This document shows, in pieces, positions 16,105 through 55,250 of a DNA stretch of 64,000 nucleotides. Position numbers and translations under genes: made by a program. The stretch spans positions 310,001-374,000 of the forward strand of contig NZ_FOQT01000005.1 in the NCBI RefSeq assembly GCF_900113805.1, read 5' to 3'. The notes under the pieces are model-generated. The model was not told the DNA's origin. It saw only the letters and a program-made list of their open reading frames with translations, and did not search any database. Position 1 is the first letter of the stretch; each line of letters starts with the position of its first letter. The DNA is from Halpernia frigidisoli (GTDB lineage Bacteria; Bacteroidota; Bacteroidia; Flavobacteriales; Weeksellaceae).

Positions 16105-16230
16105 AGACAAATTTATAAAATATTTAAGTAGATCCAATTTTGGTGATTTATTGAAATCATTTTATTGATGGTTATTTGTTTTAATGATTCGGAAAATTGA
16201 TCTTTTCAAATGAGAAAAAAAACTTTTTCC

Positions 16231-16308
16231 TAGCCGCGATAGAAGCGGCATCCTTTTTCCTGAGGCCTGAGCGAAGGCAGCAGGAAAAAGATACAGCGGA
16301 TAGCGCGC
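16231..16308. repeat. Dispersed intergenic repeat, family B, copy 1
   Basis: The segment begins TAGCCGCGATAGAAGCGGC, contains ATCCTTTTTCC and GGAAAAAGAT as arms around a short loop, and ends AGCGGATAGCGCGC. The same architecture recurs at 36143-36211 and 48463-48551. It sits between divergent genes. Confidence 0.7.
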
Positions 16309-16335
16309 ACAATCTTCGGAGAAATCAAAACCGTC

Positions 16336-27095: not shown

Positions 27096-27144
27096 CTATT
27101 TATTTAAAAATTCTATAAATTTTTATTCAAAAACAAAATTTAAT

Positions 27145-27247
27145 GCAGCCCGACTTGAACGGAAATCCTTTTTGCTTTAAAATTTTCCGATTTAACAAAA
27201 AATTTCAAAGCAAAAAGATTGGGAGTGGAAGGCGGAAATTGCTGCCC
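27145..27247. repeat. Dispersed intergenic repeat, family A, copy 1
   Basis: Ends are GCAGCCCGACTTGAACGGAA on the left and AAGGCGGAAATTGCTGCCC on the right. Inner arms TTTTTGCTTT and AAAGCAAAAA flank a variable loop. It lies between two convergent genes. Copies 2 and 3 are at 35005-35080 and 57285-57387 (the last inverted). Confidence 0.8.
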
Positions 27248-30097: not shown

Positions 30098-30128
30098 TGA
30101 CAGATTTGTTCTTTTAAATATTGAAAAT

Positions 30129-30230
30129 GTTATCCAGAAAGGCGGAGGGATTAGACCCTATGAAACCTTGGCAACCTATCTTCCGGGAAAAGGTGCTACA
30201 TTCTATCTGCAGTTTCGCAGTACAGATAAC
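30129..30230 (+). promoter_or_regulatory. SAM-I (S-box) riboswitch aptamer
   Basis: The stretch matches the S-box core: GGCGGAGGGATTAGACCCTA, then TGAAACC, TTGGCAACC and AAGGTGCTA. P1 is GTTATC (30129-30134) with GATAAC (30225-30230), and a P4 hairpin CTGC/GCAG follows the core. It senses S-adenosylmethionine. Placement directly upstream of metH fits feedback control of methionine synthesis. Confidence 0.95.
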
Positions 30231-30254
30231 AAAATATAATTCTTTACCACTTTA

Positions 30255-34915: not shown

Positions 34916-35004
34916 AAGTTGAAAATTATTTCGTTTTTGTTTAAAAATGACAAACGAGATCACCCAATTAAAAACGAGAAATCTTTAAAAACAAACAAAT
35001 TATC

Positions 35005-35080
35005 GCAGCCCGACTTGAGTGGAAATCCTTTTTTTGCATTTGAAAAAAAGATTGGGAACGGAAGGCGGAAATGTCTGCCC
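35005..35080. repeat. Dispersed intergenic repeat, family A, copy 2
   Basis: Same ends as copy 1 (GCAGCCCGACTTGAGTGGAA on the left, GGAAGGCGGAAATGTCTGCC on the right) but with a shorter loop. It lies between the small secreted protein and metF. Confidence 0.8.
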
Positions 35081-36095: not shown

Positions 36096-36142
36096 TTTTT
36101 TTAGAAGCACGAAGATCTTTTTCTCTTTTGAAAAGTGTACCT

Positions 36143-36211
36143 GCTATCCGTTACTATCTTTTTTAGCCGTCTGAAGACGACAAAAAAGGATATCCACTAC
36201 TATCAGGGCTA
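36143..36211. repeat. Dispersed intergenic repeat, family B, copy 2
   Basis: Arms GCTATCCGTTACTATCTTTT (36143 on) and AAAAAAGGATATCC, then ACTACTATCAGGGCTA, flank a GC-rich hairpin GCCGTC-TGAA-GACGAC. It lies between convergent genes after metF, where it may also serve as a terminator. Confidence 0.75.
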
Positions 36212-36264
36212 GAAGTTCATTTATGTTCCCTTTAGAAAAAAAGAATAAGTAAGATCAAAAAAAT

Positions 36265-52446: not shown

Positions 52447-52788
52447 TTATTTTTTCACAGCGTCTTTAACAGCTTTGTTAGCGTCAGCAGCAGCACCTTT
52501 AGCAGCATCAGCAGCTCCCTTAGCAGCTTCACCAGCACCTTTAGCAGCTTCTTTAGCAGCATCAGCTCCAGCAGCAGTTGTAGCAGAAGCAGCATCTTTA
52601 GCAGCATCCATAGTTACAGAAGCAGCAGAATCAACTACAGCAGCAGCAGAATCAGATACCATTGCAGAAGAATCAGACATTGCAGCAGCAGTAGAATCTG
52701 TAGCGTTAGCTGTTTCAACAGTTTCAGTTTTTTTACAAGCAACTAAAGAGATAGCAGCGATAGCAGCTACGAATAATGATTTTTTCAT
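52447..52788 (-). CDS. Alanine-rich small lipoprotein, paralog 1
   Basis: The 113-residue protein has a lipoprotein signal (KKSLFVAAIAAISLVACKK), a Ser/Asp/Ala-rich middle and a C-terminal repeat of AAKGA/AKEAA units, a pattern likely to form an amphipathic helix as in LEA-like proteins. The signal peptide is the same as in the paralog at 54851-55087, showing duplication. It has a -7 box and a palindrome upstream shared with the paralog. Function is unknown, perhaps an envelope stress protein. Confidence 0.8.
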   Translation of the reverse strand: MKKSLFVAAIAAISLVACKKTETVETANATDSTAAAMSDSSAMVSDSAAAVVDSAASVTMDAAKDAASATTAAGADAAKEAAKGAGEAAKGAADAAKGAAADANKAVKDAVKK

Positions 52789-52861: not shown

Positions 52862-52931
52862 CAAAGATAGAGTCGCTAAAAAATTTCCATTAGCAAATTA
52901 ATTGTATTATCTTTGTAAAACAGTTTTACAA
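52862..52931 (-). promoter_or_regulatory. Promoter and palindromic operator of lipoprotein paralog 1
   Basis: On the minus strand a -7 box TATCTTTG occupies 52869-52862. A 19-bp palindrome TTGTAAAACAGTTTTACAA lies at 52913-52931, with 43 bases between it and the box. On the plus strand another TATCTTTG (52908-52915) overlaps the palindrome and points to the divergent gene at 52976. A protein bound there could act on both. Confidence 0.65.
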
Positions 52932-52975
52932 TTTTTAGTAACTGACAATCAAAACTTTAACCGTATTTTCTTATT

Positions 52976-54118
52976 TTGACAGATTTAGATTTATTACATT
53001 TTGAGCAACTGAAATCTGAAGTTCAGGCCAAATACATAGAAAATCACTCACCTTCCTTTGATGAAATTTCAAAATGGAAAGGAATTGACATCATCTACTT
53101 CCAGGAAGACCTTCGAAAGTTGGCCAAAGGGAATATTAGCGAAAAATCATTCTATACTTACTTTAAAAGTTCTCCTGTAAACAAATTACCACGGATAGAT
53201 ATGCTAAATATCCTTAGTATTTACGCAGGTTATGATACTTGGTATGGCTTTAAAAAGAAACATTTATTTAGCGATGAAATATTGAGTGAAAGCGAAGAGA
53301 GCGAAATATTAAATGTAACTGATTTACAACAAGGCAATGAGATTTTAACAACAATCAATGGAACTGAAAACACTGGAGAAGAGAAAATTATTTCAGATCC
53401 GAAAAGTTTAGACTTACAAAACAAAAACGTTGAAAATCAATCAAATGACAGCAAAATTACAATAGAAAATCTTTCTGACACCAAGGAAAGTAGGAAATCC
53501 TTTGTGAAGAAATATTTATGGCTTTCAATTTCTGCCCTACTACTTTTGACAGTTGGCTTTTTAAGCTTTAAAGATGAAATTTTTAGTAAAAAATATTATT
53601 ACAGCTTTATTGACGCCGATCGTAATTCAAAAATAAGTGCTGAGTTGCAGGTACAGATCTTAAAATCTGACGAATCACCTATTATATATGTAGCAAAACC
53701 GAACGAGCCTTTTGTTTATACAACAAAATCAAAATCTCTAACAATGGTAGTTTCTTCTCCTTACTACAGAACTGATACCATACAGCGTAATTTAGAATCC
53801 GCGCCTGAAGCTGAAAACATCGAATTAAAGCCAAATGATTATGCGTGGATGCTTTTTTATTATTCTAAATCAATCAAAGATTTAAAAAAGAAAAGAGAAA
53901 GTTTAAATTATTTGATAAGCGACAATGCCCTTATTTATCAGGTTTACGACAATGAAACCTATGGCGTAGAAACTATGAATAAGCAACGCTACATCAACTT
54001 CGTTACTTTACCTTCAACATCACTGGAAAAACTTGAAGTAATTGAAACACAAACAAATACACAAGGAAAAATAGAAATGATTAAATTTAAAATAGCCAAA
54101 GATGAAATCCTTAAATAA
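52976..54118 (+). CDS. Membrane protein with a conserved Flavobacteriia N-terminal domain
   Basis: The 380-residue protein has a cytoplasmic N-terminal domain (about 1-100: FDEISKWKGIDIIYFQEDL, then ISEKSFYTYFK and LPRIDMLNILSIYAGY) that looks like a helical module, an acidic linker, one transmembrane helix (about 181-199) and a periplasmic part. I recognise it only as a recurring flavobacterial hypothetical type. The start is TTG, with no ATG before residue about 85. It is divergent from lipoprotein 1 and overlaps the next gene by 17 bases. Confidence 0.7.
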   Translation: MTDLDLLHFEQLKSEVQAKYIENHSPSFDEISKWKGIDIIYFQEDLRKLAKGNISEKSFYTYFKSSPVNKLPRIDMLNILSIYAGYDTWYGFKKKHLFSDEILSESEESEILNVTDLQQGNEILTTINGTENTGEEKIISDPKSLDLQNKNVENQSNDSKITIENLSDTKESRKSFVKKYLWLSISALLLLTVGFLSFKDEIFSKKYYYSFIDADRNSKISAELQVQILKSDESPIIYVAKPNEPFVYTTKSKSLTMVVSSPYYRTDTIQRNLESAPEAENIELKPNDYAWMLFYYSKSIKDLKKKRESLNYLISDNALIYQVYDNETYGVETMNKQRYINFVTLPSTSLEKLEVIETQTNTQGKIEMIKFKIAKDEILK

Positions 54119-54683
54119 TATATTTTTCGCATTTATACTCGGATTACTACTTTTTTCCTGTAAAAAAGAAAATTCTTCCATAAGTGATTTAGATACATTG
54201 CGAAAAAATAATAATAAAATTAGCTATCCAGTTACAAAAATGGATAGTGCGCAGGCAATTTCCTCAATTACAAAGCAAAAAATTCAGGAATTATTTGATC
54301 TTTCTACACTTTATACCTCAGGAAACCGCGATACAGAAATAGATTCAATAATATATTCGCAAATTAACAATTACTTTTTAGTGCAGGACTCCCAAAAACT
54401 GAAACCAATTTTTCGACAACTTGACAGTTTGAAAGTTAAGTCTGCAAAGGTTGGCAATATTGAAGTTCGGAAAGAAATGAAAAATAATGACACTTTAGAC
54501 TTTGCAAAATTTGACGTAGAATATTTCGACAAAGACAAAAGATCGATTGGAATTTTTAATAAAAATACGCAGTATATTTTGAAAGCCTATCCTATAAAAT
54601 TTAAAAAAGAATTCAAATTTTACTTCGTTAGTTTCGATATTCCGTCGCCAAAGGATAGTATTTCAGTGGGTAAAACCAAATAG
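54102..54683 (+). CDS. Lipoprotein coupled to the membrane protein upstream
   Basis: The 193-residue protein has a lipoprotein signal (NNIFFAFILGLLLFSCKK) and a mature part of about 170 residues without a recognised domain. It overlaps the upstream gene by 17 bases, so the two products likely work together at the envelope. Confidence 0.7.
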   Translation: MKSLNNIFFAFILGLLLFSCKKENSSISDLDTLRKNNNKISYPVTKMDSAQAISSITKQKIQELFDLSTLYTSGNRDTEIDSIIYSQINNYFLVQDSQKLKPIFRQLDSLKVKSAKVGNIEVRKEMKNNDTLDFAKFDVEYFDKDKRSIGIFNKNTQYILKAYPIKFKKEFKFYFVSFDIPSPKDSISVGKTK

Positions 54684-54799
54684 AAATATTTTCAATAAAC
54701 TCCGTTTAAGATTGATTTGCCGCAATTCTAACAAATAATATACAGTAAAATTTGAGAGATATAATTTTGTTCTCGCAAATACTTATTGGTTTAAAACAA

Positions 54800-54827
54800 A
54801 CAAAACCCGCAATTCAGCGGGTTTTGT
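54800..54827. terminator. Bidirectional terminator
   Basis: ACAAAACCCGC (54800-54810) pairs with GCGGGTTTTGT (54817-54827), loop AATTCA, with T run after it on the plus strand. It ends the plus-strand lipoprotein gene and the minus-strand paralog 2. Confidence 0.88.
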
Positions 54828-54850
54828 TTTAAATTAGATTTGAGATCTAA

Positions 54851-55087
54851 TTATTTTTTGATAGCTTCTTTAGTTGCTTTCTCGTCAGCTTTAACCTCAG
54901 TTTTTGCAGAATCAGCAGTAGCTTTTACAGAATCAACTACAGCAGTTTTAGTAGAATCAATTGCTGCAACAGCTGAATCAGCGTTTGCTTCAACTGAATC
55001 AACAGCAGTAGTTTCTACGTTATCAGTTTTTTTACAAGCTACAAGAGAGATAGCAGCAATAGCAGCTACGAATAATGATTTTTTCAT
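54851..55087 (-). CDS. Small lipoprotein, paralog 2
   Basis: The 78-residue protein has the same signal as paralog 1 (KKSLFVAAIAAISLVACKKT), then Val/Asp/Ala-rich heptad-like repeats (DSVEANADSAVAAIDSTK) and a Lys-rich end. It lacks the long AKEAA repeat of paralog 1. A -7 box and palindrome identical in arrangement to paralog 1 lie upstream. Confidence 0.78.
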   Translation of the reverse strand: MKKSLFVAAIAAISLVACKKTDNVETTAVDSVEANADSAVAAIDSTKTAVVDSVKATADSAKTEVKADEKATKEAIKK

Positions 55088-55151
55088 AATGGTAAAATTT
55101 TAAAAGTTAATTATATTGTTATGTGAATTATTTATCTCAATAATTACAGAG

Positions 55152-55221
55152 CAAATATAAGATGGTCTCACAACAAATGACAGAAAATTACTTGTAAGAG
55201 CTTTGTAAAGCTATTTTACAA
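55152..55221 (-). promoter_or_regulatory. Promoter and palindromic operator of lipoprotein paralog 2
   Basis: The minus-strand -7 box TATATTTG is at 55159-55152. The palindrome TTGTAAAGCTATTTTACAA lies at 55203-55221, again with 43 bases between it and the box. An extra half-site TTGTAAG at 55192 is 11 bases from the palindrome's first base. Confidence 0.65.
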
Positions 55222-55250
55222 TTTAATATCATTGATTTTCAAAGCGTTAA

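Follow-up and report, generated by a model that had tools for sequence, protein, structure and literature searches.

The 64,000-nucleotide stretch of Halpernia frigidisoli DNA that we analyzed (hereafter the window) contains two small paralogous lipoprotein genes on the minus strand, between which lie two plus-strand genes, one for a membrane protein, divergent from the first lipoprotein gene, and one for a further lipoprotein. A 19-bp palindrome, TTGTAAA-N5-TTTACAA, occurs in two exact copies, one upstream of each paralog, as described in an earlier note made from the sequence alone; we confirmed both copies (52913–52931 and 55203–55221), the separation of exactly 43 nt between each copy and the minus-strand TAnnTTTG box (the -7 box) of its lipoprotein gene, the common signal peptide of the two lipoproteins, which both begin MKKSLFVAAIAAISLVACKKT, and the overlap of copy 1 with the plus-strand -7 box of the divergent gene (TATCTTTG at 52908–52915). 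In order of position, the features are:

52447–52788, minus strand: lipoprotein 1, 113 residues, with a signal peptide and a lipobox recognized in its sequence
52862–52869, minus strand: -7 box of lipoprotein 1, CAAAGATA (TATCTTTG), 43 nt from palindrome copy 1
52902–52908, minus strand: third half-site of copy 1, plus-strand TTGTATT, a direct repeat with 52913–52919 at 11-bp pitch
52908–52915, plus strand: -7 box of the divergent gene, TATCTTTG, inside the direct repeat and overlapping copy 1
52913–52931: palindrome copy 1, family-conserved, with the near (direct-repeat) half-site at 52913–52919 and the distal inverted half-site at 52925–52931
52943–52951: distal motif of copy 1, TGACAATCA, conserved according to a consensus of main and duplicate copies
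52976–54118, plus strand: divergent membrane protein, 380 residues, TTG start, the candidate regulator
54102–54683, plus strand: intervening lipoprotein, 193 residues, overlapping the membrane-protein gene by 17 nt
54851–55087, minus strand: lipoprotein 2, 78 residues, paralog of lipoprotein 1
55152–55159, minus strand: -7 box of lipoprotein 2, CAAATATA (TATATTTG), 43 nt from palindrome copy 2
55192–55198, minus strand: third half-site of copy 2, plus-strand TTGTAAG, at 11-bp pitch
55203–55221: palindrome copy 2, an exact match
55232–55241: conserved distal motif of copy 2, TTGATTTTCA

The membrane-protein gene and that of the 193-residue lipoprotein probably share an operon; in genus g9, lipoproteins similar to the latter come after the membrane-protein homolog. 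Lipoproteins 1 and 2 scored 39.3 and 28.3 bits, respectively, against the PG1828 family (NF050142), below its curated cut-off of 50 bits, and by eye the lipoprotein promoters have no clear -33 TTTG at the usual distance. The TTG start of the membrane-protein gene at 52976 is found in 68 of 82 aligned loci (L025, L054–L133), and none of these 68 has an ATG or GTG within codons 1–12; a conserved weak start codon of this kind would limit the amount of product. Elsewhere in the window, Rfam searches placed four Flavo-1 RNA matches on both strands (16228–16314, 27143–27242, 35000–35076 and 36133–36214) and a SAM riboswitch on the plus strand (30127–30232).

The element exceeds the palindrome, since both copies add a third half-site on the lipoprotein side, 11 bp from the near arm. 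A TTGAnnnTCA-like motif at a set distance past the distal arm was likewise conserved, in main copies and in those of second lipoproteins (duplicates). A scan of the whole genome (G000, 3,021,049 bases) found the exact palindrome only twice, both times at this locus and so not distributed at random, and the sister species has a single exact copy in the equivalent location. When one mismatch was allowed, 14 additional sites appeared genome-wide, close to the 11 obtained for a reversed control pattern at equal tolerance; the exact copies are therefore distinctive, whereas the one-mismatch sites amount to background. Exact palindromes numbered 0–4 per genome, and the extra ones in genera g8, g21 and others, mostly inside coding sequence, look like chance.

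We surveyed the element in the family f1, identified as Weeksellaceae from the named relatives Chryseobacterium and Kaistella, in which the divergent membrane protein was found in 113 of 120 genomes. A full palindrome-type element was present at 74 of the 82 f1 loci surveyed (80 loci plus the window and the sister species); because the genomes are related, this and the other counts given here do not represent independent events. The gap from element to lipoprotein -7 box was 43 or 44 nt in all 74 main copies and in all 13 duplicate copies. Unlinked lipoprotein loci gave the same picture, with the direct repeat and a 43-nt gap in genera g21 and g28; the g28 half-sites are degenerate, and their spacing was judged by eye. 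Where a neighboring lipoprotein comes directly after another one, the element is mostly missing. We conclude from this that within f1 the element belongs to the lipoprotein promoter. Genera g29 and g7 have neither the membrane protein nor a full element, and one sequence search did not detect the lipoprotein in them either; this joint absence could reflect loss of one gene cluster.

The duplicate copies also bear on another reading of the two palindromes, namely that they are a duplicated promoter that is still undiverged and has no regulatory function. The two lipoproteins are indeed paralogous and their upstream regions can be aligned; however, when duplicates were compared with their partners, the half-sites had been retained (11–14 of 14 positions, and all 7 of the far arm), whereas most of the 32-nt stretch before the -7 box had diverged (8–16 of 32 identical), with two more similar pairs in genus g26 (27–29 of 32) as the exception. 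The pair in the window follows the general trend (13 of 32 identical in the gap, half-sites matching at 12 of 14 and at 7 of 7 positions). This contrast between a drifted gap and preserved half-sites, together with conservation of the element across f1 and of its core across three families (see below), makes the undiverged-duplicate reading very improbable. We also dropped the idea of a species-specific duplication, since genera g8 and g32 carry similarly placed second lipoproteins with the element.

Comparison among genera showed which part of the element is rigid. The spacing between the palindrome arms varies: most genera have N5 and some N4 or N6, while g21 has N11 and g16 N14–15. By contrast, TTTACAA-like half-sites stood in direct repeat at 11-bp pitch in 67 of the 82 f1 loci (mean for shuffled sequences 0.28); pitches other than 11 had counts of only 0–2 in f1, and of 0–3 when the loci of two further families, f3 and f7, are included. 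We therefore rejected a strict dimer palindrome as the core unit. The earlier note had proposed a dimeric regulator that activates both lipoproteins from an upstream site; the upstream site at a fixed distance (43 or 44 nt in main, duplicate and unlinked copies) holds, but the simple dimer palindrome gives way to a rigid direct repeat. Genome count, family conservation and the pitch statistics together rule out chance as the source of the element.

In Flavobacterium psychrophilum the -7 box has been mapped at -12 to -5 (PMC9723704), and with the box so placed the three half-sites of the lipoprotein promoter fall at about -45 to -51, -56 to -62 and -68 to -74. Centers near -48, -59 and -71 would be positions suited to an activator. 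The -7 box of the divergent gene lies within the core. Of the 74 copies with that gene, 71 retain the box, and of the 13 duplicates without it, 11 have lost the box; because of this, activation of the lipoprotein with repression of the divergent gene would be the natural reading, and the repression suggested by the earlier note appears plausible. The same geometry bears on the notion that the palindrome acts at the RNA level, folding into a hairpin within a 5' leader. Its arms could pair, and loop length varies among genera; however, the element lies upstream of the lipoprotein -7 box and so would not be transcribed, the left arm overlaps the divergent -7 box so that at most one arm could be present in the RNA, a direct repeat is unable to form a hairpin, and the Rfam search gave no match at the palindrome locus. 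We regard a hairpin as extremely unlikely.

Two known kinds of palindromic site were compared with the N5 form. GlnR/TnrA operators of Firmicutes have the form TGTNA-N7-TNACA, which the N5 palindrome fits; however, arm spacing is variable here, the core is a direct repeat, and the phylum is another. The LexA-like protein of Elizabethkingia anophelis, a member of the same bacterial family, binds a palindrome with the same N5 spacing, TTAC-N5-GTAA (PMC8565304). In such SOS sites (TTAC-N5-GTAA or CTAA-N5-TTAG) the arms have the opposite polarity to those described here, and this, with the absence of SOS genes at the locus, rules out a LexA-like motif.

A DNA pattern search of 396 Flavobacteriales genomes gave matches in 75 f1 genomes and six outside f1, and a separate protein search identified membrane-protein homologs in f3 and f7. 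Four of the six outside genomes have the homolog starting within about 100 bp of the DNA match, and for a fifth (G408, L314) adjacency was confirmed by reading; five of the six matches were thus examined, the sixth being that of G381. Since the matches adjoin the membrane-protein homolog, we dropped the idea that they are chance. An 11-bp-pitch repeat was present upstream of 16 of 17 f3/f7 homologs (mean for shuffled sequences 0.05), while the divergent neighbors there are different envelope-type proteins, including a DUF4349 lipoprotein, a VWA/YfbK lipoprotein and a SIMPL-domain protein. As these neighbors differ from those in f1, it is the membrane gene that the repeat follows from family to family; within f1 it also follows the lipoprotein. 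The earlier note had suggested that the membrane protein may be part of the same response; with the repeat following its gene in three families, it is probably the regulator itself and not simply a further target. In three f3 genomes (L310, L315 and L316) TTTACAG takes the place of TTTACAA in the repeat, and the protein differs in its N-terminal domain as well (SEKWIYTHLKPE, PRKDML), a possible case of co-variation of protein and site.

In fold models of modest confidence (mean pLDDT 64.5 and 71), the 380-residue protein consists of an N-terminal domain (about residues 26–98), a linker, a single transmembrane helix (about 176–202) and a beta-rich C-terminal domain; the hydropathy peak is at 180–198, and f3 and f7 homologs are similar. 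Residues 26–98 are the best conserved (mean 0.76 vs. 0.35 in the linker), with S55, E56, K57, Y60, K64, P72, R73, D75 and N78 nearly invariant. At curated cut-offs a Pfam search matched the N-terminal domain to no DNA-binding family, nor did it find a winged helix (Trans_reg_C) there. A fold search with the model of this domain, itself of modest confidence, matched nothing clear, so that a known fold is possible; with the full model, the matches were confined to common beta folds of the C-terminal part. A likeness to XRE proteins seen by eye was set aside after hhalign comparison with the HTH_3 domains of relatives gave a probability of 0.1 percent, although a remote relation is possible. As library, fold and XRE comparisons leave this domain without a name, the identity of the binding protein is an inference, as are the sign of regulation and the signal. 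The literature collection that was searched contained no description of the element or of the 380-residue protein.

In its predicted layout, with a cytoplasmic N-terminal domain, one transmembrane helix and an extracytoplasmic C-terminal domain, the protein resembles the transmembrane transcription regulators of the ToxR/CadC type (surveyed in PMC10269533), and its own and neighboring promoters are, judging from the repeat-gene association, its likely targets. It differs from these in having no recognized winged-helix or other known DNA-binding domain; the sequences are unrelated, and the promoter here is of the Bacteroidota type.

A different binder should be weighed, namely a soluble regulator encoded elsewhere, most simply of the OmpR/PhoB type, which would bind the 11-bp repeats, activate the lipoproteins and repress the membrane protein as a mere target. 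Binding sites repeated directly every 11 bp, immediately upstream of the -35 region, are typical of activators of that type, and the 7-bp half-sites in direct repeat near -35 (67/82 and 16/17 loci) resemble such sites. The lack of a recognized DNA-binding domain in the membrane protein also speaks for a regulator of this kind. The element differs, however, in adding an inverted half-site, in having very few sites per genome and in that no response-regulator gene adjoins it within the window. Also in favor of this type, in Riemerella, which belongs to the same bacterial family, the DAP-seq motif of PhoP has TTTAACA as its most conserved part, and a DUF4407 gene is listed in the regulon (PMC9603813). 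However, the half-site here is TTTACAA and not TTTAACA, and the 583 peaks of PhoP compare with 0–4 palindromes per genome. In addition, the repeat tracks the membrane gene in three families while the neighbors change, as autoregulation predicts. We consider the soluble regulator unlikely, yet it is the main rival.

That the membrane protein binds the repeat is the simplest account of a repeat that follows its gene across families, and we favor, as reasonably probable from these genomic patterns, a divergent gene that encodes a membrane-tethered regulator which binds the repeats, activates the lipoproteins and represses its own gene. The element itself, with its fixed geometry, its conservation and its association with both genes, is a plain observation. 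The identification of the regulator gains from the convergence of DNA pattern search and protein search on the same places in f3, and from g29 and g7, in which membrane protein, full element and detectable lipoprotein are missing together. Counting against it, besides the N-terminal domain for which no DNA-binding match was found, the membrane-gene promoters of g21 and g28 have no clear copy of the repeat, and g10 and g23 carry the palindrome near a DUF4407 gene, where the 43-nt geometry is missing. In these two genera (L165–L169, L171, L172 and L175) an exact palindrome lies 75–92 nt upstream of the DUF4407 membrane-protein gene, followed by more TTTAC-like repeats. This gene is the one recurrent extra target of the palindrome, and the window's genome has only a distant homolog of its product.

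The comparisons show the element to be a real operator, made up of two TTTACAA-like half-sites in 11-bp direct repeat and, completing the palindrome, a distal half-site in inverted orientation. Under the membrane-tethered reading, the cytoplasmic N-terminal domain of the 380-residue protein would bind these half-sites, and the variable linker and one transmembrane helix would join it to an extracytoplasmic, envelope-sensing domain. Once bound, the regulator could contact RNA polymerase and activate the lipoprotein gene, and the same binding would mask the divergent gene's start region and its -7 box and so repress that gene; surface lipoproteins would then be under a one-component switch that is membrane-tethered and self-limiting. 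More tentatively, and with slightly less than even confidence, we speculate that the N-terminal domain represents an undescribed DNA-binding family of membrane-tethered Flavobacteriales regulators that bind 11-bp-pitch TTTACAA arrays and control envelope proteins.

Outside model species, the Flavobacteriales have few known pairs of regulator and operator, and this locus offers a defined operator, its geometry relative to the Bacteroidota promoter type, a small regulon and a candidate protein. If the membrane protein is the binder, at least three families would share an unrecognized class of membrane-tethered transcription factor to which it belongs.
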